Below are positions 6,001 through 22,634 of a DNA stretch of 64,000 nt, in pieces; the stretch's first letter is position 1, and the number at the start of each line of letters is the position of its first letter. The notes beneath the pieces are model-generated. The model had not been told where the DNA came from. It did no database searches and saw only the letters and a program-made list of their open reading frames with translations. The stretch lies in the NCBI GenBank assembly GCA_028281045.1, contig JANQKP010000004.1:1-64000 (forward strand), read 5' to 3'. The position numbers were made by a program, and so were the translations under genes. Origin of the DNA: Candidatus Altimarinota bacterium. GTDB lineage: Bacteria; Patescibacteriota; Gracilibacteria; UM-FILTER-43-11.

Positions 6001-9000
6001 TGATTATTACGGGTGAAGCCACAAGTGACTTCTTTGGAAATGCACTAGCTGCTGGTGACATTGATAAGAACGGATTCGATGACCTTATTGTGGGAGCCTA
6101 CGGAAACAATACGGCAGGTAAAATTTATGTATTCTACACCGATGGAAGCATTCCAACCACAGCCGCTACAGCCGACTACGACATTACCGGGGAATCTCTA
6201 GGAGAATTCGGTAAAACTGTTGCTAGCGCCGACATTAATAACGATGGAAACGACGATATTCTTGTTGGAGCAGACAACTACTCAACAGACACAGGTCGCT
6301 CTTATGTGTTCTTCAATAAAGTGGTACAAGGTACCATTGCTCAAGACGCAGATATTATTCTTACGGGTGAAAGCACCAACGAAAACTTTGGACTATTCGT
6401 AGGAGGTATGGACCTTAATAACGATGCCAAAACGGATATTATTACCGGTTCTTACAATGCAGGATCTACCGGTAAGCTCTACATTATATATGGTGAAAAT
6501 ATGGAGCTCCCAGAGCCAAGCACAGTAACCATTACCGATCTTGAAGGAGATACCACTGCAGCGTATTGGGATATAACCGACGACAGTGCTACAGATCTTG
6601 TGATCGCTGTAGGAGAATCTACAGAATGTAGATGGTCTACTTCTGACATTGATGATGATAACTACTCAAGTGCTACCACTTGTTCTGCACCAAGCAGTAA
6701 TGCAAGTACTTGTAGCTTTGGAAATCTAACCGATACCGCTAGCGCCACAAGATACTTCCGTTGTACCAATTCTGGATCTTCAGTAAACAGCGTAACCAAT
6801 ACTTCAATTACGTTTGGAGTTGATGTAACCACACCGACTACACCGGTGATTTCATCGACCTCACATGCAAGTGAAGTAACCTATTACAACGATGCAACCG
6901 TGGACTTTACGTGGACCGATCCAGACACGGGACCAAGTGATCAGACCTATTACTATTGTATTGATCAGGCAGACACTTGTGATCCAGATACTGTTGATGC
7001 AGACCGCACGGTAACGGATGCTTCTGTAAGCCTTGGGACGAACTACGTAAGGGTTAAGAACTGTGATCTATTCGCTTGTAGTGCTGTAGATTCATTCACG
7101 GTTCTCGTGGATACAACAGTACCTGGAGATCCTGTGATTAGCTGTAGTGGAAAAGTATCTGGAACTCCAGACCCTGCTACAAGTACCACTTGTACCTGGG
7201 ATGACACTACAGGTCCAAGTACGGGAACGTTTAATTATTGTACGGACACCCTAAACACTTGTACCCCAAGTGTGTCAGATCCAGATCGCTCTGTAGATCT
7301 TTCTAGCCTGCCTTCTGGACACACCTACTTCCGTGTACAAAATAGCGATACCGCTGGAAGCACAAATATTGTTTCATTCGATATCTTTGTAAATAATCTT
7401 CCAGAACTTACGGCTATGGCTGAAGACGATGGTGTGGCTCTACAAACCATCGAACCAGGAGACACGGTGACCTTCCGTGGAACCATTGCAGACCTAGACG
7501 GAGAAGATGTGAGCATGGTGATTTGTACCGATGGTTCTACCTATAATAATAGTGGAGATCCATGTAATGGAGGTTCTGTCATTTGTAGCAGTCTTGCACA
7601 AACTCCTGGCGAACTTACTTGTCAGGCGGCTGCTTCCCTAACGCAGATTCCAACGGCTCATGGAACTTATGATTACGAAGTCTTCATTTACGACGTTAAT
7701 GATGCCGGAGCGACATACACGGCGCCAAGTGCAGACAGTTACACGGTAGAAGATGTATCCCCTATTGTGAGCAATGTGGCGATCACCACACCGTTTACAT
7801 TAACAGCAGGTTCTACCACCACATACACATGGACCGCTGATGTAGTAGACAATAACGGTGATACAGATTTAGCCTCAGCTAATGGTGTTGTTTATGACGC
7901 GAATCGTGTAGATGCAACTTGTTCAGCTGATGAAAATAATTGTTATATAGATGCAGCTTGTGACCCAAGTGGAATTACAGGGGCAGATGAAAACGCCAGC
8001 ATTAGCTGTAGCGTAGACATGTACTTCAATACCAATGCGGGAACCAATTGGATTGCCTCTGCTACAGCAGCAGATGGAAGCACAAGTAACACTGCGGTCT
8101 CAAGCGCAGGTGAAGTTCAAGCACTTCTATCTCTAGACCTTAGAAATGCTTCAGATGCTGCAGCAAGTGACTTCAGCTTCGGAACCATTGGACTTGGAGC
8201 AGACTCTGGAACGCTGGCTAATCCGATTTATATCGCCAATACCGGTAATACAGAGTTCGATACCAACTTCTCTTCTTCTCAGATTTGTAATAACTGGGGA
8301 ACGGCTTACACCACATGTAGTGGAAGCACTATTGCTGTCACTCAACAAGAGTGGACCAATGCGCAAAGCGTAAGTTATGGAAGTGGTATTGATGTACAAC
8401 TAGCAGCCAGCGAAGCGTGTATCGATAACAATATTCCAATAAGACCAGTAAATACAAATAGCGATGGAAATAGACCGCTTAGATTTGGTATTGAAATTCC
8501 TACGGGAACCGCACCGGGTACTTACTCTTGGCAAAATCTATTTACCGCGACAAGTACCGCTTGTACTACCCCACTTTCAGATGCCATCTTCAACTGGAAT
8601 ATGGACTCTAGCCTTCCAGACAATCCACCGTTAGCTGAAAATGATAATATTGTAGCTTACTATGACTTTGACGAAGGATCTGGAAGCACAGCCACCGATA
8701 CTTACGGAGTAAATGATGGGACCATTACAGGAGCAACTTATGCAGGATCTGGAGCCTTTGGATACTCTGGAGATGATGCTCTAAGCTTTGATGGATCTAA
8801 TGATAATGTAATCGTAAATCCACTAAACACTTCGATAACTGGAGACTTTACAGTTTATGCCTGGGTTAAGGCTGGCACCCAAGGTTATCAAGCACGCATG
8901 ATTGAACTTGCTCAAGCAGGTACATACGGAGCTCAAATTAGCCTTACTCCTACAGGAGCTATTAACCTTGATAACTCAGGTGGACCTACATCAGGAATAA

Positions 9001-9794
9001 ACTCAAGCACAGGGTTTGATGATAACAATTGGCACATGGTTGCTGTAACTAGAAGTGGAACTAATTATGAATTATTTGTAGATGGAGTTAGCGCTGGAAC
9101 AAGTGGTGGAACAGCACCAGCTTACACAAGGTTATTTATAGGTGAAAGATCTGACGCTGGAAACGATTTCACAGGAGAGCTGGACAACGTTATCATTTTC
9201 AATGACGAAAGAACCTCAGAAGAAATTTCCAACGACTATATTAAAGGTATTGCTTCAATTACAGCGGCAACAGCTGCTGGAAGCGGAGCCTATGGTTACA
9301 CCAATGACAACGGCTACACCTTTAACGGTTCAACAAGCTATGTTGATCTAGGTAAGGCTGTGTTATCAACGACAGATAGCGCTGCTGAATACTCTGGATT
9401 TGCTTGGATTAAGACCACAAGCAGCACTGCAGATGGAATCATTACCCAATACAACTCTAACGTTTCAGGTCGCTTTGGATTCCGCCTAAACAGTGGAAGC
9501 ATTGCTTATTGGAAAAATAGCACATACATCGCTCAATCTACCGCCACCGTTAATGACGACAGCTGGCACCATGTAGGGTTCACCAGAGACAGTAGTGGAA
9601 ACGTTAAACTTTATATTGATGGTACTGAAGATGGCACAGGAACAGATGCCACCACATTTGAAGATGCCAATGTGGAAATTGGAACCTTCAATAGCGGACT
9701 ACTCCACTTCACTGGAGACATTGATGACGTTCAGATATTCGATAAGGCTCTAAGCCTATCTGAGATTCAATACCTATATAATGTAGGCCCTTAA
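3..9794 (+). CDS. Giant surface protein with FG-GAP propellers and two LamG domains (5' partial)
   Basis: The reading frame is open back to the window edge, so the true N-terminus and any signal peptide lie upstream; 3252 residues follow the first GTG. Order: a Glu-rich stretch; a mixed region to about residue 500; about 28 FG-GAP/integrin-alpha repeats (about residues 505-2140) with calcium-loop motifs such as GDxNxDGxxD; two Cys-containing Ig-like repeats (about 2265-2450); a module shared with the 748- and 2670-residue proteins (about 2455-2855); and two LamG/concanavalin-like domains at about 2868-3065 and 3066-3252. FG-GAP propellers and LamG domains normally bind proteins or glycans outside the cell, so adhesion or host contact is the inferred role. 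Unlike its neighbours it carries LamG domains after the shared module. It ends in TAA. Confidence 0.9.
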   Translation, partial: EVIEEPAQEEVVEEEPTIEEVTEEPVVEEVVEEEVIEETPIDISTLIPEEEFADRKDIQDLNTKINFVEAEDLYIGFIGELFTLKRVNAKSMEDIREKLIMLGADEGKQDELISFLNRIFIEIGYNADDDFDGFVGVLRFDVENCPVLAEYEALDEEELEDLDRELNTGQRNRLLRQNRGAEIKKRKLFRNLKQLKRPFCIVESEDISTRNIIDEREAKQKIEKAHKFVKQNIAIDFRNNGEREIGFNFQQNRIIETQDPNLDTSEGPAITYGEADTEIRLEDFDEDDEIQTHSPFKAPEKVLRDIVMKHDRPTDDLNEEEVKYSMAVIDSVDNSEVLYTPVNPSDETEETVIYTSDDNRVSDVYKYVNDPATIVPNQIKSYTIYNYGEGTEEEIYGFENAALYLRSDGKIEGFYVDGATVDGSTIRSEAKTIYENGGERPDFVIDAPFAMNRDNELIETMTYEIVGDNFNQLKVTINANSSSYPIVLDPTITFTAPGVTTASATIEGNGSVSGADLGQYMTIGDINNDGKDDLLVSEGLEDEVYIFYNNNFPADVTSADITLSMSFDDEPYLRVHDLNQDGKNDLIIGEPGLNGQDGQILIFNGVSSWPSTITSGDADIIITGETDVQFGYRYAIADLDSSGTPDLLVGGPQYSTTGRAYIIYNDGSWGTTSCTTGCLASNADVIIDGAGGSFGDEVVVGDLDADGDDDVVVGAFGTTNGHVYIFYNDGSYPTAAGSADHTITGPGAVSSFGIEMTTGDLDNDGDDDLVVTNGSYSSGTGRVHIFYNDGSLPTTSATSDVTITGDASTDQFGTRLETADMNGDGREDLVVSSSGYNSIEGRVTIFYQPSGGYSSSFNASDADAITIGAGNLAFGQDIAIGDLNADGAMDFAASEPHAASQEGHVHIFFGQGGTIGGKNTIDGESGSLFGQSMAKGDFNADGIDDVIIGAPNYNTDQGRAYIFYSPNKNFTATNADVVLTGAATGDNFGYNVETGDIDQDGLDDVLIAADQTAAGAGQVHVFYQTSSGYGATESASSDDVTFTGTTAGDCFGRSITVGDMSNDGITDVLIGAPCYSSDNGRGYLFEQTGGGYSATVAASSADSEITYTSDYAEQAVSTAIGDFDLDGKQDIVSVNGASGVSGSAIRGWHQSSGFPATLSAVNDNIEINLSAEGAQILVFDFDLDGDDDFIIGDSTYNTNQGRIEVFLDDVDNTPDYTFTGETGSFIGDIDQLAFEDLNDDGMPDLITSGNDYNSNTGRAYVMYQPISGFSASNTLGTDADIIITGDATSGDFGNSLVVGDFNQDGINDLMIGATGYSSSAGRVYTYFSEAQYAWNSNYKHAPQVDLYGGIKFKFDESTSSNQFGYDVVSGDFNGDGKNDVAVGANEESKVYIFLNDGDVPNLDSEADVIISGDSGSEFGETLEISRVSTVDDHIDDLLIGAPSYNSSEGRVYMFAGRTTWSATYDAETDADLKFTGVAGSSYGQAISAKHDIDDTYDNTLDILVGAPGANSGDGAVYMHFNDDVWNTFATGADDNLVGTSSSGESFGEFITTGYVSTNGDRRADIVVAAPDNATSTGKVYVFNNDGAAYPAGAATADVSFSGSSQSDRFGDDLAIGKVSEAQDDTEDIVIGAEGIDTLYIFNNDGTYGSADTTISGTGNLGREIKIGDINRDGIDDIIASEYSLNSNTGAIRVLFNDGSYPSAANADISIDGVASGGRYGLYMDIADVDNDGFDDIINSSYSFDGGTDGGAEIITFGTTQIEGETATRFITASSVASGDFDNDGGEDLAIGDYNYSSNTGRVWVFYDVEHKLSIDAANADLIISGESSSGFGGTLQGGDFDGDGDDDLMVGGFIQSSNTGKVYVFYNDGSYPTTAATADLSITGEATSNRFGHRMTKGDFDADGDLDFAVAATLRNSSQGRVYVFYNDGSYPTAAASADEIITGENTGDNFGIRMIAADTDSDNRVDLIVGANGYSSDTGRVYIFENDGSYASAAGSADVIITGEATSDFFGNALAAGDIDKNGFDDLIVGAYGNNTAGKIYVFYTDGSIPTTAATADYDITGESLGEFGKTVASADINNDGNDDILVGADNYSTDTGRSYVFFNKVVQGTIAQDADIILTGESTNENFGLFVGGMDLNNDAKTDIITGSYNAGSTGKLYIIYGENMELPEPSTVTITDLEGDTTAAYWDITDDSATDLVIAVGESTECRWSTSDIDDDNYSSATTCSAPSSNASTCSFGNLTDTASATRYFRCTNSGSSVNSVTNTSITFGVDVTTPTTPVISSTSHASEVTYYNDATVDFTWTDPDTGPSDQTYYYCIDQADTCDPDTVDADRTVTDASVSLGTNYVRVKNCDLFACSAVDSFTVLVDTTVPGDPVISCSGKVSGTPDPATSTTCTWDDTTGPSTGTFNYCTDTLNTCTPSVSDPDRSVDLSSLPSGHTYFRVQNSDTAGSTNIVSFDIFVNNLPELTAMAEDDGVALQTIEPGDTVTFRGTIADLDGEDVSMVICTDGSTYNNSGDPCNGGSVICSSLAQTPGELTCQAAASLTQIPTAHGTYDYEVFIYDVNDAGATYTAPSADSYTVEDVSPIVSNVAITTPFTLTAGSTTTYTWTADVVDNNGDTDLASANGVVYDANRVDATCSADENNCYIDAACDPSGITGADENASISCSVDMYFNTNAGTNWIASATAADGSTSNTAVSSAGEVQALLSLDLRNASDAAASDFSFGTIGLGADSGTLANPIYIANTGNTEFDTNFSSSQICNNWGTAYTTCSGSTIAVTQQEWTNAQSVSYGSGIDVQLAASEACIDNNIPIRPVNTNSDGNRPLRFGIEIPTGTAPGTYSWQNLFTATSTACTTPLSDAIFNWNMDSSLPDNPPLAENDNIVAYYDFDEGSGSTATDTYGVNDGTITGATYAGSGAFGYSGDDALSFDGSNDNVIVNPLNTSITGDFTVYAWVKAGTQGYQARMIELAQAGTYGAQISLTPTGAINLDNSGGPTSGINSSTGFDDNNWHMVAVTRSGTNYELFVDGVSAGTSGGTAPAYTRLFIGERSDAGNDFTGELDNVIIFNDERTSEEISNDYIKGIASITAATAAGSGAYGYTNDNGYTFNGSTSYVDLGKAVLSTTDSAAEYSGFAWIKTTSSTADGIITQYNSNVSGRFGFRLNSGSIAYWKNSTYIAQSTATVNDDSWHHVGFTRDSSGNVKLYIDGTEDGTGTDATTFEDANVEIGTFNSGLLHFTGDIDDVQIFDKALSLSEIQYLYNVGP

Positions 9795-9974: not shown

Positions 9975-12221
9975 ATGTTTAAACGCCATATTTCGATCGT
10001 GGCTGCGTTCATGCTCCTAGTAGGGGCTGCTCATTTGGCTTATGCCGATGACGAGCAAACGTCAGTGACGACTTCAAATACTGCGCCTACCATTTATTCT
10101 ATGGTAGATGACAGTAGTAACGGTGCCGCCGTTGGAGACCCAACCAACGTTGGTAGCAATGTTACTTTCACGGTACAAGCGTCTGATGACAATCAAGACG
10201 GTTGGTACCTTGCAGTCTGTAAGACCGCTGCCGTTACCCACGGTACGGGAACTGCAGCACCAACTTGTGACGGTGGATCATGGGCTGTTAGCTCATCTGC
10301 TGTTGCTTACACAGGATCTCCTGTGACAGAAGCTCTAACTTACACCACCACCGGTTCTGAAACCGTTGGAGAGTGTGGAGCTGACAATGAAAGTTGTGCT
10401 TGGCACGCCTTCGTTTGTGATAACTCAACAACAGATGATGCATCTGAGTGTTCTGCAGTATCACAGGGTCACTCGGCTCGTGCCGCTGACGGTGAAGCAA
10501 CCAACGCCAACGATTTAGACGTTACTTCTAAAGTGACTGATTCTACTCACAATGGATACACGGTTATCCTTCAAGTGAATGACTCACTTAATGCAGTTGC
10601 TGCAGTAAGTGCATCTACAGATGACACTAACTGTACAGTTCAGTTCGATACTGATTCGAATCCTTCTACTTGGTCAGACGTTGTTTCTGCTATCCAAGGA
10701 GATGCAACTTGTAACGCTGATCTAACTGTTTCTACTAATAATGGAACAGAAGAAGTTGTTGCAGGTGATGCTGAAACCATCACTCTTGCTAACGGTTTCG
10801 ATGCAGCAACAGCTGCTGAAAGCTCACCTTACAATATCAATCACAGACCTTCATTCTCTGCGGTTACTATCACAGACACTGGAGACAACTCTGATATTCA
10901 ACCAGGTGACACTCTTCGTGTAACTATTACAACAGCTCAATCTGCCGATGCAGATAATGACGCTGCTCAAGATACACTTCGCATGTTCGTTTGTTCAGGT
11001 GATGACCTAACAGACCGTGCAACAGACACGTCTGCATTCAACGTGGCTAACATTGGGTCTAATCCATGTACAGGTGGTGTACTTCTTTGTTCTGACACCA
11101 ATGGTGGTGCAGGGAAAGATCCTACATCAGCTAATTTAACTTGTGATGACACTACTTCACTTCTTGCTTCTCCTGTGGCTCACGATGATTACAACATTGA
11201 AATCTACGTGATTGATAATCACGAGTTTGTAGATGCTTCTACTACAGTTCAAACGGTAACTGTAGAAAACGTAGCACCTTCTATTGGAACTCCAACTTTC
11301 TACACTGATGATGATGACGGTGGAGAATGTGACGATGCTTACTCTTCAGCATTCGGTCTAAACGCTGGTACTTCTAACCGCGTATGTTGGCAAGCAACAG
11401 TAACTGACACCAATGGTGACGGTGACCTTGCTTCAGCTATTACTGCAGACTTCTTCGATGACGCTGTAGTAAATACTGGATGTTCTGATGATGAAAACAA
11501 CTGTTACCCACTGACTCAAGCAGCTGGAACAGACGGAGAAATTTGTAGCTTTGACGCTGCTTCTTCAACTGGTTCCGACCTAGAAGCAACGGGTTCAGAC
11601 ACCACTCGTGTGGTTTCTTGTTTCGGTTACATCTGGTTCAACGCAAATCCATCTACTCAATGGGTGGCTGACGTTGACGTAAAAGATGACGATACCGCTG
11701 CTGTAACTGGTACTGCTTCTGCAGTAGAGATTAGCGCTACTCCATCACTTGATGTAGCAGACGGAGCTAACTCAGACGGTGCTGCCTCTCTAGCTTACGG
11801 TTCAATTGCACCAGGATCTTCTGGAGCAAGTAATGTATCTGTATACATTGCCAATAAAGGTAATATTGTGATCGACTCATTCGTAACTGGTTCTGACATG
11901 TGTGACCAAGGATGGGCTGGTGGTACTCAGTACACTAACTGTGTGACTAACCAAATCAACGCTGGTCAACAAAAATTCAGTATTACAGATGAAGCTTACG
12001 CAGATCTAGACAGTGTTCTAGTAACTCCTGCTGCTGCTGTAAATGCTGCTTCAGAATGTGCCAATGTAAATGTGGCTGTTCGTGACGATCACACCGCTCC
12101 AGCTTCTGGAAATGTAGCGATCTACTTCAATATCCTACTTCCAGGTGGAGTACCTGCTGGATCATACACAGGTCAAAATACCTTCACCGTATCGAACGGT
12201 ACTGGAACTTGTAACATCTAG
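9975..12221 (+). CDS. Secreted Cys-rich beta protein, minimal form of the shared surface module
   Basis: 748 residues with a signal peptide (charged start, hydrophobic run, AYA-like cleavage site near residue 24). The rest is acidic, Thr/Ser/Asp-rich and beta-rich with many paired cysteines. From about residue 36 it is alignable by eye with residues 2037-2670 of the 2670-aa protein, and from about 290 with residues 2455-2855 of the giant protein: a PGDT-containing Ig-like unit, a DxNGDGDLAS unit, a YFN/WFNAN unit, and a C-terminal unit with IAN-GN and ending in YTGQNTFT. It is the simplest member, essentially the module alone. Codons ending in T and the clean promoter hint at high expression, so an S-layer-like or major coat protein is possible (inference). 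The 330-aa anchor gene follows after 37 bp with no terminator, implying co-transcription. Confidence 0.85.
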   Translation: MFKRHISIVAAFMLLVGAAHLAYADDEQTSVTTSNTAPTIYSMVDDSSNGAAVGDPTNVGSNVTFTVQASDDNQDGWYLAVCKTAAVTHGTGTAAPTCDGGSWAVSSSAVAYTGSPVTEALTYTTTGSETVGECGADNESCAWHAFVCDNSTTDDASECSAVSQGHSARAADGEATNANDLDVTSKVTDSTHNGYTVILQVNDSLNAVAAVSASTDDTNCTVQFDTDSNPSTWSDVVSAIQGDATCNADLTVSTNNGTEEVVAGDAETITLANGFDAATAAESSPYNINHRPSFSAVTITDTGDNSDIQPGDTLRVTITTAQSADADNDAAQDTLRMFVCSGDDLTDRATDTSAFNVANIGSNPCTGGVLLCSDTNGGAGKDPTSANLTCDDTTSLLASPVAHDDYNIEIYVIDNHEFVDASTTVQTVTVENVAPSIGTPTFYTDDDDGGECDDAYSSAFGLNAGTSNRVCWQATVTDTNGDGDLASAITADFFDDAVVNTGCSDDENNCYPLTQAAGTDGEICSFDAASSTGSDLEATGSDTTRVVSCFGYIWFNANPSTQWVADVDVKDDDTAAVTGTASAVEISATPSLDVADGANSDGAASLAYGSIAPGSSGASNVSVYIANKGNIVIDSFVTGSDMCDQGWAGGTQYTNCVTNQINAGQQKFSITDEAYADLDSVLVTPAAAVNAASECANVNVAVRDDHTAPASGNVAIYFNILLPGGVPAGSYTGQNTFTVSNGTGTCNI

Positions 12222-12258
12222 TAGCCCCTTTATTTAAATAATTTAGCAAGCATTCATA

Positions 12259-13251
12259 ATGAATATATATAAAATTTCAACCAAACTTGCAGGGCTATTA
12301 CTCCTTACTATTATGACATTTGGAATGCCGGAGGCAGCGCAAGCTGCCTTCGGGATCTCACCTCCGAATGTGAGTTATGATCACCTAAAACCTGGAACCA
12401 CTTATCAAAAAGTAGTGACAGTGAGCACATCGGAAACCGATGTAAGCAGTGATGTAAAACTATCATATTCTGGAGATGAATCTCTTAGAAAATGGCTTAA
12501 GGTAGAAGGGGGAATGTCACAAGTGATCCCTGCGGGACAAAAGCAACTTCCTATTACTCTCTCTATTGCTGTTCCTGAAGGCGCTTCTAAAGGTAGATAT
12601 CAAGGTAACCTTGCCGTTGTGTTTAATAACGACAAGCAAAACAATGCCATTGAAATCAACCTAGGAGCCAACATTGGGCTCAGCCTTAATGTAACAAGTA
12701 GAGACTATGAAGACTATGCCCTTCGCAGTGTGAACCCTGTTGACGTTATCGAAGGAAGATCTCTTGTATTTGAAGTACTGATCGACAATAAAGGTAATAC
12801 TGACCTTGATGAAATCGATCTAACGGCTCAAATCTGGTCTCAGAATGAGAAAGATCTAATCACCACTCTAAAAGGTGGAAAGCTTTCTAAAGCAATTCCA
12901 GCTTACGGAGCAGGTAGTGCCTTCGTATACTTCGATGATGTGATCCCTACTGGAAAATACTGGGTTAAAAGTTCAGTAGTAAAAGGGCGCACAGAAATCT
13001 ACGCATCTAAACAACTTCTTGAAGTTTCTCCTATCGTGGTAGAAAGCGATGGCGTTAAAACTACTCTAGATGTACTTAGAGATGGAGAAATCCAAAGAGC
13101 TTTCATTTCAGACCCTGAAGGAGGTTCTGGAAAAGGAGTAAGTACTTCACTTCGTGTGAAATCTCCTTACGAAGATGCTATTATCTACTCAATCCTAACG
13201 CTGATCATTTTGATCGGAATTGGCTTCGCATATAAGCACAAAAAAGGATAG
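12259..13251 (+). CDS. Membrane-anchored Ig-like protein, WxIP-like architecture
   Basis: 330 residues: signal peptide (about 1-30, ending AQAA), a first beta-sandwich starting FGISPPNV (about 31-150), a second beta-sandwich with a DNKGNTDLDEIDL motif (about 155-265), then a C-terminal transmembrane helix (about 307-325) and a short basic tail. Length and layout match the Firmicutes WxL-interacting proteins (DUF916/DUF3324 family), which sit beside WxL surface proteins and tether them; sequence homology is not demonstrated here. It follows the 748-aa gene closely and is ended by a strong terminator. The 384-aa gene at 21480 is its paralogue (same FGISPP start, RSLKKWL/ESLRKWL, GNT and YWVK motifs). 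Inferred role: cell-envelope anchor or assembly partner for the secreted proteins. Confidence 0.75.
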   Translation: MNIYKISTKLAGLLLLTIMTFGMPEAAQAAFGISPPNVSYDHLKPGTTYQKVVTVSTSETDVSSDVKLSYSGDESLRKWLKVEGGMSQVIPAGQKQLPITLSIAVPEGASKGRYQGNLAVVFNNDKQNNAIEINLGANIGLSLNVTSRDYEDYALRSVNPVDVIEGRSLVFEVLIDNKGNTDLDEIDLTAQIWSQNEKDLITTLKGGKLSKAIPAYGAGSAFVYFDDVIPTGKYWVKSSVVKGRTEIYASKQLLEVSPIVVESDGVKTTLDVLRDGEIQRAFISDPEGGSGKGVSTSLRVKSPYEDAIIYSILTLIILIGIGFAYKHKKG

Positions 13252-13278
13252 TTAGGTAATACTAGTCCAAAACAGATA

Positions 13279-13320
13279 AAAACCCGTTAAATCGCATGCA
13301 AATGCCTTAACGGGTTTTTT
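13279..13320 (+). terminator. Rho-independent terminator of the 748/330-aa operon
   Basis: An 11-bp stem (AAACCCGTTAA with TTAACGGGTTT) enclosing a 16-nt loop and ending in a T-run. It separates this operon from the next promoter. Confidence 0.9.
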
Positions 13321-13353
13321 CGTATTTTAAGCCAAAAAACGGGTAAAAAAACT

Positions 13354-13382
13354 TTGGTTTTTGCCCTATAAATTGGTATCAT
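13354..13382 (+). promoter_or_regulatory. Promoter of the 2670-aa gene, leaderless geometry
   Basis: TTGGTT (13354-13359), 17 bp, TATCAT (13377-13382) preceded by TGG as an extended -10. Only 8 bases separate the -10 box from the ATG at 13391, so transcription should start at or within a few bases of the start codon. Confidence 0.75.
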
Positions 13383-13390
13383 TTTAATGT

Positions 13391-16300
13391 ATGAAAATGA
13401 TACAAAAATTTAAAGCACATCATCTTGTTTTATTCCTTATTTCTGTTGGGGTTGTTGTTGGGTTTTTCAATAACTTCTACTCCCCTCTTTCAAAAGCAGA
13501 CGGATGGCGTTTTGATGAAAATTTCTACACCACGGATTATCAGGATGGCACCCTAACAGATTCAGTTATTGATTGGGATGTGATTGAAGGTCAGATCAAT
13601 TTAAAAGATGATGTGTGGAGCAATATAGATGATACAAACGTAGGGCCTACTGAACTAACCACAGGTTCTGAGCAAAGAAGAAGCTGGAGGTCTGCGCAGA
13701 TCAACCAAAGCAATGGAGACTTCCATATTGCCTGGGCCGATTTAACCAACGGCGAAATTCATTATCAATATTGGAATGGGTCTTCTTGGAACACTCTTGG
13801 GGGTAGCTCTAACATTACCAATGATGCCAACGCGCAAGATCGTGTTTCTTTAGCACTAGACTCTAGTGGAAATCCACATGTAGCCTTCATGCACTTTGAT
13901 GGCAACTGGAACATTAAACACATGTATTGGAATGGGTCTTCTTGGACCACGCATAGCACTGGGATTGTTAATGAATTCGCTCAGTTCTATCAATTCCCTA
14001 CCCTAGCGCTAGATAGCAGCAATAATCCATATGTGGTTTACCAAAGATCAGGAAGTACAGGGATTAAAATGAGATACTGGAATGGTTCTGCTTGGTCTAA
14101 CCTAGGAGGCTCTGAAACGGTAGCTTCTGTAGGGGGAACCGGTTATGACGGAGACATTGCCATAGACAGTAGTGGAAATCCACACGTGGTTTGGATAGGG
14201 GCCACCAGTGACTACCCTCACCATAGATACTGGAATGGAAGTAGTTGGGCTAATTACTCAGGAAATGACTACATTGTTGCAGATGCCTCTACCTTCCCTA
14301 GAATTGAACTCGATAGCAACGATGATGCCCATGTGGTATGGGACACCGCCACAAATAGCTTTGAGTACTACTACGTTAGTGGTGGGTCTTGGGTAGATGG
14401 CACCAATAATCCAGGAACTGGGTTTGGAGATGTTGACATTAGAATCGACAACAACGATAGGGTTCATGTGGTCTCTAGAGACGTTGGAGGGGCAGGACTG
14501 AACTACAATTACACTGATGACAAGGGAGCAACGGCGTGGAATCACTTGGTGACTAAAAATTTCTACGACTCTGGCAGCAGTGCAGTTTGGCCAAGCTTTG
14601 ATGTGTATGACACTGACGGTTCCATTTGGATCCAGTATATGGAAGGAACCTTTGGTACAAATGATGAAGACATTTTTGCAATTAAATATGATGCTAGTAC
14701 CAATATCACCTCTGGTGAAGTAGGTTCTGATATCACCTCATCAGACCTTTCAAACTCTGGGCAGATTAGGCAAGTAACCCTTACTTCAGAAGCCACTTTA
14801 AATGGTGGAACCATTAATTACTACGTGGATGGAACTACAAGTGCTGGAGATTGTGGAACAGGAACTTGGACCGCCGCTACACCTGGAACACCGGTAAGCA
14901 TCACCGCAGACACCACAGTAAACTGGTGTGCTGTACTTACGGCAGCAAATAACACCAGTAATATCATCATTAAAAACGTAAGCCTTCAGTTCAATGATGA
15001 AATTAGAACGGTGACTAATCCAAATGGTTCTGAGATTTATAACGTTGGTGAAAATGTAGCCATTACTTGGGATTATGAAGGAACTGACAACAACAATGTT
15101 GATATTCAATATTCAACCAATGGCTCTAGTTATACGGATATCGTGACTAATACAGCTAATGATGGGTATTACCTATGGGATACCACAGGTTTAAGCGGAG
15201 CCACAACCTATACCGTTAGAGTTTATGACACAGGAGCCAATACCATTGGAGTAGATACTTCTGATGCCGATTTCACTCTACTCGATTCAGGAACAGTTAC
15301 CTCGTATCCTTTCACCACCGCTGGGAATTACACCATTGGGGATGCCAGTGATGTACAAGTTTCAGGGGGTCATGCTGAGTTCATTGCTAATGCCCCAGGA
15401 ACCTCTACCCAGAACACAACATTGGACTTTGATAAAGCCGATGCTGGTGACTTCCTAGTTTACGATGACTCCAGTATAGATTTTAATAACACGGGTGTTG
15501 CTAGACTAGGAAACACTTACGATAAAAACACGTTCAATCAGGGGTACTTCTTCGCCTCTTCTGTTTCAACAGATCAGGTGCATTGTTACAGCTATAGCAG
15601 AAGTACGCAGACCTATTCAGCTTGTGGAGGAAGCTTCCCAATAAGCCTTACTATAAGTTCTGACAATGGAGATATTGCTGTGGGCCCAGAAGGAGACCTT
15701 TGGGTAACAGCAGACAGTGGTGTCTATAGATATGACGCCTCAAGTAGTTACGCCCTTTACAGCGGAGACAATTTCACCAGCGGTATTTTAGATAATACCG
15801 ATGGCAACAACAAAAGAATTGCCTTTGATGCAGATGGAAACTTATTTGTCGCAGACACTGGCTCTCAGCACATTCACAGATTCACCGTCTCAGACGATTA
15901 TGGACTTGCCCAAAGCATGTTCATTAATGGTGGAGTACCAAGAGATGTAGTGATAGATCAACAAGGTGACGTATTCACAGTAGTGAGCGATGAAGACATT
16001 TATTGTTATGACGCCTCAAACAGCTACGCGGCTTGTACCTATGGAGACTTTGGAACAGGGGCTTCAGGACGCATTGATACCCCTTGGACAGATGTAACCG
16101 ATAACTCAACCATCAATGTAGATGTAAATGGGAACCTGTGGGTCAATGAGCCTGGAGTAGACGATGAAGTCGCTTGTTTTGAAGCTGAAAATAGCTATAG
16201 CGCTTGTAATAGTTCCCCTTACTTCGGAGGACTTACAAACTTCACCCCTGGTCCTGTTTATGGGTACCAAAATGGTTATGTATGGATTTCAGATGCAACC

Positions 16301-19300
16301 GCTACCGCCGAAGGAAAATGTTTAAATATCAATAATATTTTCTCAAGCTGTGATGACTTTGGAGACTTTACCTTGCAAATCTCTGAAGGGCTGGTGCCTG
16401 ACTTCCTAGGAAACATGTGGGCTTTTGACTCAACAGGGTCAGACCTAGTGCGAGTAGACAGAAGTAACATTGCCTCTACTCTAGATAATTTATCTGCGGT
16501 TGATATTGAAAAAGGAACCACGGGAGAACAAATTGCTATCATTGGTAGTGAACATCCAACCGGAAGCCATCACGTGTTCACCACCTCAGATATCAATCAG
16601 TATGACACTACGAATGTAAATCAAATCGATGCTATTATTCCAACAGAAGCCACTCTGGCTTGGTCTGGTGTAGCCAATACCGAAATACGCTACCTATTCT
16701 CATTCGACGATAGAGTCACTTGGAAGTATCACAATGGTGCTTCTTGGGTGGCTGCCACCGGAGGCGATCTGCCGACCCAGATGAATAACAACGGTATGCT
16801 TGGTAGCGCTTTCTCTGGCCAAGGACCTACCTTCTGGGGAGCCTCAGGAGGCTTCTCTGCAGGAAGCACAAACACTGTGGACATTGCCTTTGGACTTAAA
16901 ACAGATAATCAAAGATTTAGTCCACATGTAGACAGTATTAATTTCACTTTCATTCCTAAGTACCCTATTGCCACTAACCCAGACAATAATAACGTGGTGA
17001 ATAACACGGGGCTTTCTTACGACACCATTACTGCCTTTAGCGCCAATATGGGGGCCAGCAACACAGGTCAGGTAAAGTTCCAACTTTCAGACGACGATGG
17101 AACCACTTGGTACTACTGGAATGGTTCTGCATGGGCTTCTAGTACGAATATAGAAGAGTCATCTTCTAGCACAGAAGAGCAAATCAATACGAATTTAGAT
17201 ACTTTCCCAGACAATGTGAGTGGGCAAACCTCTGGAACCCTTAAATGGAGAATGCTCCTAATTAACAATGGAGGCAATGAAAACATGGAGTTCACTCAGG
17301 TGGATTCTGTAAGTGTTACCTCTAGCCTTGTCCTGGCGAACAGTATTGATATTAAATCGGATAATACATATGCCACGAGCGCCTCAACGCTAACACTAGA
17401 TAGTGGAGATCAAACGATTTACGTTGAATTCCAATCAACAGCGCTTTCTGGAACGGGGCCGCTGACCGGTACGGTAACCAATGACACTAGAACCGATAGT
17501 GAAAGTGTTACCCTAACAGAAACCGGTACAGGAACTGCTATATTCAGAGGAACTTTGCCTACGGCCAAGTCTTCTACACCAACGAGCTCTAACGGAACCG
17601 TTGAGGGGCTTAATGGGGACACCGTTAGTGCCTCTTACGAAGTTTCAGGATCAGAGGTAATCATTCAAGATTTCGAAGGCTTTGCCGACACCGCGGCGAT
17701 GAAAACGGGAACGAACTGGTTTGATTATGTTCCAGGAGTTAGTGGTACAGAACCAACCGAAGCGATCCTAACCTCAAACGATGGAACTAATACCACTCAG
17801 TTCTATCAAAAACAAATCGACGCCATTGGAGCAGCGACTGCTAGCACAACCACGACTGCTGTTATTCCAGATAATACGACCCCTATTACGATAACGGTTG
17901 GCTCTACAGCTGGCTTCAATGACCCACCAGAACTCGTTCGTTTAGACGATGGAACTAACCACGAGATTGTACGTTGTTCGGGATCAAATACAGCGACCAC
18001 GCTGACAAGCTGTTCTCGTCCAGGGGATGATCTACAAGAATCTTACGCCATAGGAACTAACGTATATGATTACGAAGATAATCCTTATGGGGTGTCTACA
18101 ATCCTCTCTGCTTCAGTCACAACGGGTACTGCATGGGATTTCACTGATGCAGGTCTTTCATTCGATATCTACGTCGATAACGTAGCTAATCTAGATTCCA
18201 CAGGAAGTAACTACAGCTGGATTGGAAATCAATCTACAGCCGTACCGACAGGGATTCTGTATCAAGATGGAACCAATAATCCATATGCGATCTTCACAGT
18301 GCCTTCAAATGGATGGAATACCATTACGATTCCAGTAGATAGCTTCCCTACTCCGCTCACCACCTCTGCGGTGACCTCATTCATTATCTTCGTTGCTTCT
18401 GGTGATGGAAGCTATCAAGGAGGAAATGACATGCTCGTTAAATTTGATAACTGGAAAATCACCAATAAGGTTTATTCAGATTCTGTCACAGCCTCTGCGG
18501 TACAAGACCTTTCAACCACCATTAAAGACAGTGGTTGTACCTCAGAAGCTGCGACTATTTCTGCAGGAAGCTTCTGTGTAGAAGTGTTAGATCCTTCAGT
18601 AGACACCACGGGAAGTCCAGACACCCTTGATGTGACTGTAAGCTCATCTTCTGGTGATTCAGAATCGCTTACGCTAACCGAAACAGGAAATAACACAGGC
18701 TTATTCCAAGGAACCATTACAGCCGCGGATGATTCAGTCACTGCAGACGATGGCACGCTTCAGGCCTCAGACTCAGATACAATTAATGCTTACTATGGTC
18801 TCACCTTCGACTTCACCGAGGCCACCACAAGTTATAGCAGCAGCACAAGCTATGCCAGCGCCCTGGCGTCAGAAAATCAATGTCTGGGTCTAGACAGCAG
18901 CCCTTGTACTTGGCTGTATGGGGAACAACTCCTAGAAGCCGGCGGAACTCCGGGATTAGAACAAACGTCGCCTTATGAGGCAAATGCGATCAACCAGCCT
19001 GGATTCTACTCTGGAATCGCTTCTAATGATGGCACCTTTGGGAACCTGGTCTTCACCTTCTCTTCAAATGATGTAGCCGGTATTGGGTACTCATTCTTGC
19101 TTACAGAGCAAGTGACTACGGCCAGCAACACAGAGGCCTTTAGTTTCCACTACCATGGGCAAACGGCTACCTCTACAGACTCTAAGATCTATGTGTGGAA
19201 TGACAACAGTAGCATTTGGGAACAAATTGGCTCTATGGCCGCCAATACCACTTCTACCACAGAAGTAACTGTGACTAAATCTGGGCTGAGTAATTATATA

Positions 19301-21403
19301 GAATCTGGAACCAATCGCATTCACCTTGCGATCACTTCAGATACGCCAAACCTTGGAGACACTAGGCCAGACTTCATTGAATTCAAGGCGGGGGTAAACG
19401 CTACAGAAAATAGCCTACTAAATGATACCGCTACCTTTAGCGGTGCAGCCGCTTGTCCTGAAGACAGCGTATGTCCTGACGTAACCGTAAGCAACATTGC
19501 CCCAGCCTTCACTGTGAATACCACAGACTCTAGTGATAACACTTCTCCGACCAATAACGGAGATACTGTAAGCTTTGCGGCCACTGCAAGTGATCAGAAT
19601 GGAGATCAGTACTACCTACTGGTATGTGCCGATGGTAACACCGCCTCTCCTGGAAATGATGCAGCTCCAAGCTGTAGTGGTACTCAAATCTGTGTGAGCT
19701 CTGCAACAAGTAGTGGAGCAGCCGCTAACTGTACCAGTGCTGCAATTGCCACTGCCAGTGAATCGGTGGATTGGGAATCCTTTGTCTGTGACAAAGTATC
19801 TGGAGGTGGACTCTGTAGCTCTACAGAAGTCACCAATTCACCATATGCGGTTAATCACAGGCCAAGCCTGGCTTCTGTGACCGCAGACGATGCTTCAGGA
19901 TCTGGTTCTACCATTGAACCAGGTGACACCGTTTACGTGTCTGCCACCATTACAGATTCAGACACTGGAGGATCTCAAGACACCGTTACCCTTGTGGTTT
20001 GTGACGATGGAAATACGTTCAATAGCTCAAGCCCTGGAGATGGAGTTTCAACCACCGGTTGTAGCGGTGGAACTATAGGAGCCGGAGGAGAACTTTGTCG
20101 TTCAAGCACCGCCGTACCTGGCTCTCACGAATGTTCATTCGATGCGTCTATCACCAGTATTCCAACCGCACATGGAAACTACGACTACGAACTGTTCAGT
20201 TACGACAATCACAGCTTTGCCGAGGATGGAACCGCGCAGAATCAGCAGTACGCCGTAACGGACGTAGCCCCTGTAGTAGATACTGTTGTGGTACATGGGT
20301 CTAACGATCCATTCCCAGGCGCTCCAAGCGCTGGAGAAACACCAAGCGGAAGCCCTGTGGACCCGCTCGTACTTACACCTGCCTCTACGACCACCACTTA
20401 TGTTGCCGCCCTTGTGCATGATAACAATGGAGATGGAGACTTTGCTTCTACCATCACCTCGCGCTTCTTCGATACCAATGCTTCTCAGACCAGCTCGTGT
20501 GAGCCAAGTACAGGAAGCAACAGCAATGCACAACAAGAGTGTTACGAAGACACCAACAGTGGCAGCTGTGAGCTTAGAGGAATAAGTGCCACCGGTAGCG
20601 GTAAAACTGCCACAGGAACCGAAGAGACCGCTTACGTGTACTGTTCTTACCCAGTTTACTTCAATGCCAATGCCAGCACGGGTTGGGATAACTTCGTAGA
20701 AGTAGCTGATGGCAGCACCACCGTTTCTGGAACCACTTCTGGGGCAGACTATGAAATTGGATCACTTCCTGCTCTTGAAGTGCGTACCGCCGCAGATGCC
20801 GCTTATTCTGGAGGAATTGCCTTTGGATCCCTTACCCCAGGACAATCTAATACAGATCTAGATCAGATTGTTTACATTGCCAACGTGGGAAATAACGCCT
20901 TCCAAACGCAAGTAAGCTCTTCAGACCTATGTCGAGACTGGCAAGGTCAGGAATACGGAACCTGTCCTACCGATGAAATCGACAAAGGCCTTCAAAAATT
21001 CAGTAGCGTAATCACCCGTCTATCCGCCGATGTAACCGGTAATCCAAGCTCATTCGGGGTCACCAGCACCGCAGGCTTTGGCACCTCTGGAACTATAGTG
21101 ATTTCAGACGGAACCAATAGTGAAACCAAAGACTATAACGATGTCAGCGGATCTACCGTTACCCTTACTTCAGCCCTAGCAAACAATTACCTGGCTGCAG
21201 ATACCTATATTAATCTAATAGACAGTTACGGTTCAGGGGTTTCTATAGACGGCAATGAATGTATTACCACCACCGTACCAGTTCGCACTATAAATACAGA
21301 AAAATCGTTCAGTAGAGCGATCAGCTTCGGTATTAAACTGCCTACCGGATTGCCTACAGGAACCTACACCGGTCAAAACACCTTTACCGCAGGTTGTCAG
21401 TAA
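13391..21403 (+). CDS. Giant secreted multidomain surface protein
   Basis: 2670 residues with a signal peptide (about 1-36). Approximate order: a propeller-like region with repeated YWNGSSW and DSSGNPHVV motifs (125-420); an Ig-like unit (540-630); a second propeller-like region resembling NHL/YncE repeats (697-1030, DGNLFVAD-type motifs); two copies of a unit with SLTLTETG and a nearby LFQGTI/IFRGTL motif (1314-1424 and 1697-1804) flanking a carbohydrate-binding-like region (1424-1694); a jelly-roll-like region (1804-2037); and the shared Cys-rich C-terminal module (2037-2670), ending GTYTGQNTFTAGC. A small STAGF unit occurs at about 1487-1560 and again inserted inside the terminal domain at about 2541-2614. 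Own promoter and terminator. Role inferred: extracellular adhesin or sensor; no catalytic motif recognised. Confidence 0.9.
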   Translation: MKMIQKFKAHHLVLFLISVGVVVGFFNNFYSPLSKADGWRFDENFYTTDYQDGTLTDSVIDWDVIEGQINLKDDVWSNIDDTNVGPTELTTGSEQRRSWRSAQINQSNGDFHIAWADLTNGEIHYQYWNGSSWNTLGGSSNITNDANAQDRVSLALDSSGNPHVAFMHFDGNWNIKHMYWNGSSWTTHSTGIVNEFAQFYQFPTLALDSSNNPYVVYQRSGSTGIKMRYWNGSAWSNLGGSETVASVGGTGYDGDIAIDSSGNPHVVWIGATSDYPHHRYWNGSSWANYSGNDYIVADASTFPRIELDSNDDAHVVWDTATNSFEYYYVSGGSWVDGTNNPGTGFGDVDIRIDNNDRVHVVSRDVGGAGLNYNYTDDKGATAWNHLVTKNFYDSGSSAVWPSFDVYDTDGSIWIQYMEGTFGTNDEDIFAIKYDASTNITSGEVGSDITSSDLSNSGQIRQVTLTSEATLNGGTINYYVDGTTSAGDCGTGTWTAATPGTPVSITADTTVNWCAVLTAANNTSNIIIKNVSLQFNDEIRTVTNPNGSEIYNVGENVAITWDYEGTDNNNVDIQYSTNGSSYTDIVTNTANDGYYLWDTTGLSGATTYTVRVYDTGANTIGVDTSDADFTLLDSGTVTSYPFTTAGNYTIGDASDVQVSGGHAEFIANAPGTSTQNTTLDFDKADAGDFLVYDDSSIDFNNTGVARLGNTYDKNTFNQGYFFASSVSTDQVHCYSYSRSTQTYSACGGSFPISLTISSDNGDIAVGPEGDLWVTADSGVYRYDASSSYALYSGDNFTSGILDNTDGNNKRIAFDADGNLFVADTGSQHIHRFTVSDDYGLAQSMFINGGVPRDVVIDQQGDVFTVVSDEDIYCYDASNSYAACTYGDFGTGASGRIDTPWTDVTDNSTINVDVNGNLWVNEPGVDDEVACFEAENSYSACNSSPYFGGLTNFTPGPVYGYQNGYVWISDATATAEGKCLNINNIFSSCDDFGDFTLQISEGLVPDFLGNMWAFDSTGSDLVRVDRSNIASTLDNLSAVDIEKGTTGEQIAIIGSEHPTGSHHVFTTSDINQYDTTNVNQIDAIIPTEATLAWSGVANTEIRYLFSFDDRVTWKYHNGASWVAATGGDLPTQMNNNGMLGSAFSGQGPTFWGASGGFSAGSTNTVDIAFGLKTDNQRFSPHVDSINFTFIPKYPIATNPDNNNVVNNTGLSYDTITAFSANMGASNTGQVKFQLSDDDGTTWYYWNGSAWASSTNIEESSSSTEEQINTNLDTFPDNVSGQTSGTLKWRMLLINNGGNENMEFTQVDSVSVTSSLVLANSIDIKSDNTYATSASTLTLDSGDQTIYVEFQSTALSGTGPLTGTVTNDTRTDSESVTLTETGTGTAIFRGTLPTAKSSTPTSSNGTVEGLNGDTVSASYEVSGSEVIIQDFEGFADTAAMKTGTNWFDYVPGVSGTEPTEAILTSNDGTNTTQFYQKQIDAIGAATASTTTTAVIPDNTTPITITVGSTAGFNDPPELVRLDDGTNHEIVRCSGSNTATTLTSCSRPGDDLQESYAIGTNVYDYEDNPYGVSTILSASVTTGTAWDFTDAGLSFDIYVDNVANLDSTGSNYSWIGNQSTAVPTGILYQDGTNNPYAIFTVPSNGWNTITIPVDSFPTPLTTSAVTSFIIFVASGDGSYQGGNDMLVKFDNWKITNKVYSDSVTASAVQDLSTTIKDSGCTSEAATISAGSFCVEVLDPSVDTTGSPDTLDVTVSSSSGDSESLTLTETGNNTGLFQGTITAADDSVTADDGTLQASDSDTINAYYGLTFDFTEATTSYSSSTSYASALASENQCLGLDSSPCTWLYGEQLLEAGGTPGLEQTSPYEANAINQPGFYSGIASNDGTFGNLVFTFSSNDVAGIGYSFLLTEQVTTASNTEAFSFHYHGQTATSTDSKIYVWNDNSSIWEQIGSMAANTTSTTEVTVTKSGLSNYIESGTNRIHLAITSDTPNLGDTRPDFIEFKAGVNATENSLLNDTATFSGAAACPEDSVCPDVTVSNIAPAFTVNTTDSSDNTSPTNNGDTVSFAATASDQNGDQYYLLVCADGNTASPGNDAAPSCSGTQICVSSATSSGAAANCTSAAIATASESVDWESFVCDKVSGGGLCSSTEVTNSPYAVNHRPSLASVTADDASGSGSTIEPGDTVYVSATITDSDTGGSQDTVTLVVCDDGNTFNSSSPGDGVSTTGCSGGTIGAGGELCRSSTAVPGSHECSFDASITSIPTAHGNYDYELFSYDNHSFAEDGTAQNQQYAVTDVAPVVDTVVVHGSNDPFPGAPSAGETPSGSPVDPLVLTPASTTTTYVAALVHDNNGDGDFASTITSRFFDTNASQTSSCEPSTGSNSNAQQECYEDTNSGSCELRGISATGSGKTATGTEETAYVYCSYPVYFNANASTGWDNFVEVADGSTTVSGTTSGADYEIGSLPALEVRTAADAAYSGGIAFGSLTPGQSNTDLDQIVYIANVGNNAFQTQVSSSDLCRDWQGQEYGTCPTDEIDKGLQKFSSVITRLSADVTGNPSSFGVTSTAGFGTSGTIVISDGTNSETKDYNDVSGSTVTLTSALANNYLAADTYINLIDSYGSGVSIDGNECITTTVPVRTINTEKSFSRAISFGIKLPTGLPTGTYTGQNTFTAGCQ

Positions 21404-21408
21404 TTTAG

Positions 21409-21448
21409 AAAAAACGTCGTTTTACCCTTGAAAAAAAGGGCGTTTTTT
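21409..21448 (+). terminator. Terminator of the 2670-aa gene, overlapping the next promoter
   Basis: AAAAAACG (21409-21416) pairs with CGTTTTTT (21441-21448), with an inner CCCTT/AAGGG stem. The -35 box of the following gene lies inside this hairpin. Confidence 0.75.
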
Positions 21449-21456
21449 GCTATAAT
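21428..21456 (+). promoter_or_regulatory. Promoter of the 384-aa anchor gene
   Basis: TTGAAA (21428-21433), 17 bp, TATAAT (21451-21456). The ATG is 23 bases downstream, with no Shine-Dalgarno sequence. Confidence 0.8.
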
Positions 21457-21479
21457 ATTATGATAATCAAAATTAAAAA

Positions 21480-22634
21480 ATGAAAACAAAAGCTCATTTT
21501 TCAATCTTCACAGGTCTATTTACACTGGTAGCTATCCTATTTACTAGCCTAGCACCAGCAGTAGTACCTACGGCTCAAGCGGCTTTCGGAATTTCTCCAC
21601 CATGGATTAAAAACGAAAACGCTCTACCTAATTCCAGTTTTACTGGAAAAATCACGTTAAGTACAAATAATCCTGAACAGGATATGATTGTGAAAACGGA
21701 AGTTACAGGAGACCGTAGCCTTAAGAAATGGTTAACCATTCAAAACGAAGATGACCTTATTATGAAGAAAGGGCAAAGCCAATTCCCTCTTTTTGTGGAC
21801 GTAAACGTACCAAAACGTGCTGGAATTGGAGAATATCGTGGAAAACTTAATATTCGCCTAGAACCTCTAGTTAAAAACAATGCTGGAGGAATTGCTATTG
21901 CTCTTGGGGCCGTAGCCGATATTGAAATTAATGTAACAGGAGACGCTGTAGTAGATTTCCGTGTTTCTTCTGCTCGCATAGACCCTATTAGAGAAGGTGA
22001 AAACATTAAAGTTAGCCTAAATGTAGAAAATAAAGGGAATACGGCTATTGAAGAAATTGAACTTAAAGCTGAAATTTGGAACCAAACAGAAGATGAACTT
22101 ATTCAAACGCTTGAAGGAGAGCAGCTAGATAGCAAACTAGACGCTTATGCGAACGGACTAGTTAATGTAACTATTCCTGCTCCGGAGCTACCAGAAGGAA
22201 GCTACTGGGTTAAAGTTAAAGCGTTTAAAGAAAAGATTGCTGTATTCGAAACTAAAGTATTCCTTCCTGTAGAAGCTTCTCCAGAACGTCTTGCGCAGCA
22301 AGCGGCCGAAGAAGCAGAAAAAGAAGCTGCAGGTAAACCAGGACTTCCAGCGAAAGAGGAAGCAGATGACACAGAAGCTGAAGAAACCAAAGAAGTAGCT
22401 GAAGCTGATGAGGAGGAAGAAAAAGAAGAAGACCTTAAAGCTGCAGCAGACAGCGGAAGCAATCTACTTCTTACTCTAGCCATTGCTGGTGTAGCCTTCG
22501 GATTCATTGCTCTTGCTGCCGTGATTGGAGTGCTTGTATTCCTACTTAAAAAACAAGGAAACATGCCTCAAGCCCCAAGTGCTAGAGAAGAAAGCGATAA
22601 GCATTACAAGAACATCAGTAAAGGACTTCTATAA
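21480..22634 (+). CDS. Membrane-anchored Ig-like protein with acidic stalk, WxIP-like paralogue
   Basis: 384 residues: signal peptide (about 1-36, ending AQAA), a beta-sandwich beginning FGISPPWI (about 37-160), a second with VENKGNTAIEEIEL (about 165-265), then an Ala/Glu-rich, probably helical stalk of about 50 residues, a transmembrane helix (about 327-350) and a cytoplasmic tail of about 30 residues. The first two domains align with the 330-aa protein; the acidic stalk and longer tail are specific to this copy and would lift the domains further from the membrane. It follows the 2670-aa gene, as the 330-aa gene follows the 748-aa gene, giving two secreted-protein/anchor pairs. Role inferred: envelope tether for the 2670-aa protein. 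Confidence 0.75.
   Translation: MKTKAHFSIFTGLFTLVAILFTSLAPAVVPTAQAAFGISPPWIKNENALPNSSFTGKITLSTNNPEQDMIVKTEVTGDRSLKKWLTIQNEDDLIMKKGQSQFPLFVDVNVPKRAGIGEYRGKLNIRLEPLVKNNAGGIAIALGAVADIEINVTGDAVVDFRVSSARIDPIREGENIKVSLNVENKGNTAIEEIELKAEIWNQTEDELIQTLEGEQLDSKLDAYANGLVNVTIPAPELPEGSYWVKVKAFKEKIAVFETKVFLPVEASPERLAQQAAEEAEKEAAGKPGLPAKEEADDTEAEETKEVAEADEEEEKEEDLKAAADSGSNLLLTLAIAGVAFGFIALAAVIGVLVFLLKKQGNMPQAPSAREESDKHYKNISKGLL

Follow-up and report, generated by a model that had tools for sequence, protein, structure and literature searches.

The closest described counterparts of the locus reported here are the WxL surface proteins of Firmicutes and their membrane-held partners, the WxLIP proteins, which consist of the domains PF06030 and PF11797 followed by a membrane helix. 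A Firmicute WxL cluster comprises a large WxL protein, a small WxL protein and a WxLIP protein (PMC10599100), the last with the conserved motif NQIDKxxxYFDLK (PMC10599100). For this system, AlphaFold2 modelling predicted completion of the WxL sandwich by a hairpin from the anchor's first domain (PMC10599100), and the PDB now includes a WxL/WxLIP complex (9i25). WxL and WxLIP were described almost entirely from Lactobacillales and Bacillales (PMC10599100), and our search for articles on WxL in Patescibacteria or the candidate phyla radiation (CPR) found none in the library covered. In this study, we analyzed a stretch of 64,000 nucleotides, hereafter the window, from Candidatus Altimarinota bacterium (GenBank assembly GCA_028281045.1, contig JANQKP010000004.1). 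It contains two gene pairs, each composed of a secreted protein with a Cys-rich C-terminal module and a short protein with a C-terminal membrane helix (anchors A and B).

Large Cys-rich FG-GAP secreted proteins, of the same kind and from the same bacterial group, were reported in Peribacteria and Peregrinibacteria (PMC4736985). The parts of that article considered here leave the attachment mechanism of such proteins open and mention neither a docking module nor an anchor partner. The way in which giant adhesin-like proteins are held on the surface of CPR bacteria is thus an open question, for which the window offers a concrete and testable pair.

The genome bearing the window (G000) is 1.2 Mb in size and 96% complete, with 17 relatives in the same family. 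This family consists of Peregrinibacteria-like Patescibacteria, whose metagenome-assembled genome records are filed as Candidatus Peregrinibacteria, Candidatus Gracilibacteria or unclassified Patescibacteria. We consider it probable that the two pairs form a surface-display system working like WxL/WxLIP, in which the anchors hold the secreted module proteins through a C-terminal docking domain.

Anchors and Cys-rich modules compared with WxLIP and WxL

The four open reading frames listed in the initial annotation, encoding 748, 330, 2670 and 384 amino acids (aa), were confirmed in coordinates and lengths. The 330-aa and 384-aa proteins are paralogues (34% identity over 247 residues, E 1e-41) and are the only anchor genes in G000. 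As that annotation had described, both carry a signal peptide, two immunoglobulin (Ig)-like domains and a C-terminal membrane helix, and each gene lies directly 3' of a module gene. Across the family, the mature anchors begin with an invariant AAFG..PP and have the two Ig-like domains and the membrane helix in common.

A resemblance of these short proteins to DUF916/DUF3324 had also been put forward, and profile-profile comparison with hhalign recovered it. Two anchor alignments, one of the 14 family sequences and one of broader CPR sequences, were compared with 13 Firmicute WxLIP proteins. The match probability was 97.2% for the family anchors (170 columns) and 98.8% for the broader CPR anchors (231 columns, covering both Ig domains), against 3.2% for a reversed profile, at most 0.9% for 40 column shuffles and 0.4% for FimC-type chaperones. 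Bridging CPR proteins matched the window-family and Firmicute WxLIP profiles alike (L208:5090-6040, with 6.5e-11 and 3.9e-14, and L212:5977-7599), and related CPR proteins pass PF06030 itself (34.2 bits, cut-off 27.3). Judged from these profiles, Firmicute WxLIP proteins (DUF916-DUF3324) and the anchors are remotely homologous. The likeness extends to the layout, with a signal peptide, tandem Ig-like domains and a C-terminal helix in 300-390 aa, and to the genomic setting, beside genes for large and small secreted partners.

The anchors also differ from WxLIP as currently defined. Neither the window anchors nor any other G000 protein matched PF06030 (PGBD) at its curated cut-off, and PF11797 (WxLIP_HBD) reached 17.1-17.9 bits on anchor B, below the cut-off of 28.9; no other Pfam family exceeded its cut-off on the two window anchors. 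The NQIDKxxxYFDLK motif is absent from 14/14 anchors in the family alignment, and the mature start AAFG..PP is a further difference. Membership of the window proteins in WxL or WxLIP in the Pfam sense was therefore rejected: defining features were tested and are lacking, and we do not file the system under either name. A sequence search of the PDB with the family anchor alignment gave no match. Both anchors had sub-threshold matches to NCBIfam NF041740 (choice-of-anchor T family; E 9e-6 and 1.5e-4), short of its cut-off. Unlike WxLIP, some relatives of the window anchors carry SH3 tails: bacterial SH3 domains were found on the anchors of seven relatives, and in L109-L115 they lie C-terminal to a second membrane helix (topology from a hydropathy scan only). 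Because of this position, we place them outside the cell, where the tail is probably a wall-binding domain providing an extra link to the wall.

The fold of the anchor was assessed on a model from a family member (L145) in which the module and anchor genes lie in one frame. The last 286 module residues, the short intergenic stretch (three stops as serine), the signal peptide and ~246 mature anchor residues were modelled with AlphaFold2 as a single chain with a two-block alignment; this read-through chain is a computational construct and no such protein is claimed for the organism. The mean predicted local distance difference test (pLDDT) score was 81, with values >90 over much the greater part of both the docking domain and the anchor and <35 over most of the linker, and the predicted template modelling score (pTM) was 0.54. 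Among the matches to the model, Foldseek ranked 9i25_C, a WxLIP bound to a long WxL, tenth (E 1.3e-8). A structural aligner matched the WxLIP chain 9i1y_A to both anchor domains, in model residues 341-576 (Z 12.2, 213 residues), and also aligned 9i25_C (Z 10.6, 206 residues). The root-mean-square deviation to WxLIP is large, about 15, which in the model probably reflects a differing orientation of the two domains. A viral structure library returned generic Ig-like matches only.

The second component is the Cys-rich module that the initial annotation had recognized in three window proteins, and pairwise BLASTP bears this out. The C-termini of the 748-aa and 2670-aa proteins and residues ~2495-2860 of a giant FG-GAP protein encoded upstream match one another with E values of 9e-43, 2e-37 and 3e-44, with raw bit scores of 160-195 for the pairs and at most 41 in 60 shuffles each. 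The landmarks PGDT, GD-x-(D/L/F)AS, FNAN/FNTN, IANxGN and G(T/S)Y(T/S)xxNxFT occur in all three. In the 2670-aa protein the docking domain bears an insertion of ~60 residues. G000 encodes two more module proteins, of 974 aa (L063:6937-9861) and 984 aa (L063:9927-12881), arranged in tandem on contig C4, with docking parts 76% identical; no anchor gene adjoins them.

The docking module resembles WxL (PF13731) in being a beta-rich domain at the C-terminus of secreted proteins, both small and large, whose gene stands beside an anchor, and in the pattern of its last strand (IP/VP..aGtYt..t.t). It differs in being Cys-rich and in having a conserved Cys-rich domain ahead of the docking domain. That the module is itself a WxL domain was considered and gained no support. 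The final 200 aa of both secreted proteins of the pairs (748 and 2670 aa) contain no W-x-L motif, the docking module has no Pfam match, and PF13731 had no match in G000. Profile likeness was limited to ~25 columns of the last strand (0.6% with Firmicute WxL and 16-20% with CPR WxL), on a scale where CPR WxL matches Firmicute WxL at 98%. Modelled alone, the window docking domain reached a pLDDT of 58, far below the prediction for the L145 docking domain within the pair model. Its weak matches (Z <=8) to GH123 N-domains and pilins were not used as evidence, and the WxL chain 9i25_A was not among the fold matches listed for this model. The initial annotation had expected a separate or distantly related display system and had named fold similarity to WxL/WxIP as a check; profiles, intermediates and fold support a distant relation for the anchor half, and the docking domain shows no WxL likeness in its sequence beyond the last strand.

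Among 380 sampled Patescibacteria genomes, PF06030 was over its cut-off in 55 and PF13731 in 5, with the two genes side by side in several. Bona fide WxL and WxLIP_PGBD genes stand side by side in other Patescibacteria (L208-L213, L122). The window system appears to be a further branch, with the same anchor type and another docking domain. The WxL/WxLIP scheme would thereby be widened to another phylum, with an anchor scaffold that can take docking domains of different kinds. Beside WxLIP-like anchors, partners of a third class were also seen (L215, L216, L217), with endings such as SNEIQYQIVASY and TTVIVYTVTPSY and a 66% match to the docking profile.

Pairing of module and anchor genes

Conserved adjacency in relatives had been proposed as a check on the functional link between module and anchor, and adjacency was indeed conserved. 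In the 18 genomes of the family, single-sequence searches detected the anchor in 8/18 and the module in 8/18, with both in 6; in the two further anchor genomes (G009, G010), module genes were present in the anchor neighborhood. Among 14 family anchors, 12 have upstream sequence, and all of these (12/12) lie behind a module gene in the same orientation; it is the immediate neighbor in 8 cases, and in the other 4 a single GT4 glycosyltransferase gene intervenes.

We then extended the survey to the phylum with profile searches of the 380 Patescibacteria genomes. The anchor profile matched 32/380 and the module profile 18/380, and 16/18 module genomes also carry an anchor (Fisher 1.3e-17). These genomes are related and the co-occurrence counts are not independent, so that the number of families is the safer figure: the genomes with a strong anchor match, all of which have a module (15/15), span 11 families. 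The module and anchor genes adjoin in all 15. In a common cluster, a single anchor gene accompanies the gene for a large module protein and one or two genes for small module proteins of ~560-600 aa (L104, L109, L110, L111). The clusters thus mirror the large, small and anchor make-up of Firmicute WxL loci, usually with two or more module genes for one anchor.

G000 itself has at least five module copies for two anchors. Docking domains are more alike within a genome than between genera (mean identity 42% vs 34%; 0/2000 label shuffles), and those from different genomes of one genus are as alike as those within a genome (43%). The five G000 copies are mostly nearest relatives of one another. Pair-by-pair co-divergence of anchors A and B with their modules was looked for and not seen; the modules group by genome or genus. 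The G000 copies cluster together and the anchor paralogues do not partition the modules, which both fit sharing; the two anchors probably serve several module proteins, unlinked ones among them. The same clustering would also result from shared ancestry or from gene conversion inside the genus. A promoter-like site of its own for anchor B, behind a hairpin, fits a shared anchor; this site comes from consensus matching.

Proposed display mechanism and alternative readings

In the display system that we favor, the short anchor proteins would be exported, and their C-terminal helix would keep them in the cytoplasmic membrane, where they present in the wall two Ig-like domains, kin to the peptidoglycan-facing domain of WxLIP and to its second domain. 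The anchor would capture the C-terminal docking domain of a secreted partner, and large Cys-rich adhesin-like proteins would thereby be kept at the cell surface, for display rather than for fiber assembly. The partners have neither a membrane helix nor a sortase signal of their own. A strand contact akin to that of the Firmicute system is plausible, in which one strand or loop would make the contact. From their large Cys-rich, FG-GAP and LamG make-up, and from what the part of PMC4736985 considered here says about such proteins, we infer that the partners may attach to other cells. More tentatively, and with the balance slightly against it, the system could be a Patescibacteria-wide platform, in which anchors of WxLIP type have been paired with a docking domain that is not WxL and is unrelated to it (an incomplete beta-sandwich that a strand of the anchor would complete), one anchor type holding many giant Cys-rich adhesins for contact with host cells. 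A module of ~150-270 residues marking surface display would allow the surface proteome of many uncultured genomes to be deduced from their sequences.

Several observations weigh against the display system. The L145 pair model (pTM 0.54), delivered without coordinates or inter-domain errors, yielded no scoreable interface, and docking of the module to the anchor is inferred from genetics. As far as profiles can tell, the docking domain has no relation to WxL beyond the last strand, and an analogous binding mode cannot be carried over from it. Pair by pair, the tree of the anchors is not matched by that of the modules, and the anchor paralogues do not divide the modules into two matching groups. 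Two genomes, G004 and G146, carry a module with no anchor detected, and one of the two is a family member with 98% completeness. Finally, single PapD-like domains aligned to the anchor model with Z 10-11, and some ciliary Ig-like chains reached the WxLIP level (Z 10-13). The fold match alone is not specific, because these domains score like WxLIP.

This last point leads to the alternative that survives best, which we nevertheless consider unlikely: the anchor would be a membrane-held, PapD-like assembly chaperone and the module a pilin-like domain, the pair building a fiber by donor-strand exchange, as in the chaperone-usher systems FimC/FimA and Caf1M/Caf1. The first Ig domain of the anchor model aligned with FimC, SfaE and Caf1M over ~105 residues at the Z values given above for PapD-like domains, the docking-domain model weakly matched FimA, FimI, PapA, CsuA/B and Caf1 subunits (Z 4-6), and a PilT-like ATPase gene follows anchor B in one relative, with a gene of similar size there in four others. 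However, the anchors are membrane-anchored and match WxLIP over two domains, and their hhalign relation is 97-99% to WxLIP and 0.4% to FimC-type chaperones. No usher and no outer membrane context accompany them. Given its pLDDT, the pilin matches of the docking model are of little weight, and the partners reach 2670 aa and more, unlike pilins.

About as unlikely is that the anchor acts as an independent cell-wall or host-binding protein, its adjacency to module genes being mere co-regulation in an operon. The lack of a demonstrated interface, the modules without a detected anchor and the promoter-like site of anchor B behind a terminator-like hairpin would all agree with this. Against it, adjacency is maintained in at least 11 families with nearly strict co-occurrence, and the partners lack an attachment signal of their own. 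Least probable is that the module is an export or sorting signal for another machine (sortase-like, or a secretion-system C-terminal domain) with the anchor as a membrane accessory: most copies carry the module at the C-terminus and its ending is conserved, and G000 encodes two sortases, but the three window proteins have no LPXTG, the module can be internal with LamG domains after it, and no secretion system of this kind was found linked.

Sortase anchoring of the module proteins was likewise rejected, as a search for LPXTG in the three window proteins found none despite the two sortases. Both sortase genes are above the Pfam cut-off (C2:166282-166710 and C1:94672-95079), and sortase anchoring may coexist in G000.

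Features and neighborhood of the locus

Table 1. Features of the module-anchor locus, in window positions.
Feature	Positions	Strand	Basis or remarks
Giant FG-GAP/LamG protein with internal module; 5' end cut by contig start (window position 1)	3..9794	+	
Internal module copy in FG-GAP protein	7500..8558	+	module homology
Small module protein, 748 aa	9975..12221	+	signal peptide, Ig-like repeats, C-terminal Cys-rich module; without LPXTG or C-terminal membrane helix
Module region of 748-aa protein	10890..12218	+	homology to other module copies
Putative C-terminal docking domain of 748-aa protein, 171 aa	11706..12218	+	alignments; AlphaFold2 on domain alone, pLDDT 58
Anchor A, 330 aa	12259..13251	+	signal peptide; mature protein begins AAFGISPP; two Ig-like domains followed by C-terminal membrane helix and a short, basic tail
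Predicted membrane helix of anchor A	13177..13233	+	hydrophobic segment in translation
Large module protein, 2670 aa	13391..21403	+	signal peptide, beta-rich repeats, C-terminal module
Module region of 2670-aa protein	19907..21400	+	docking part ~20756-21400, with insertion
Terminator-like hairpin and T run, between large module gene and anchor B	21425..21440	+	consensus scan only
Promoter-like site 5' of anchor B, 11/12 match, TG before second hexamer	21428..21456	+	consensus scan only
Anchor B, 384 aa	21480..22634	+	layout of anchor A plus acidic linker preceding membrane helix
Predicted membrane helix of anchor B	22464..22547	+	hydrophobic segment in translation

The FG-GAP protein contains 26 FG-GAP stretches and two LamG domains, the LamG pair being C-terminal to the internal module. 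An internal module followed by LamG (Laminin_G_3) domains is a recurring architecture, seen in L057, L061 and the window gene at 3-9794. Located 3' of anchor B in the window is a gene that we take to be NadA, its product being named from our reading of the sequence. In five relatives (L045, L048, L050, L051, L053), the gene after anchor B encodes a protein of 370-443 aa with a common C-terminal pattern, and a family search on the L045 member identified it as a PilT-like T2SSE ATPase.

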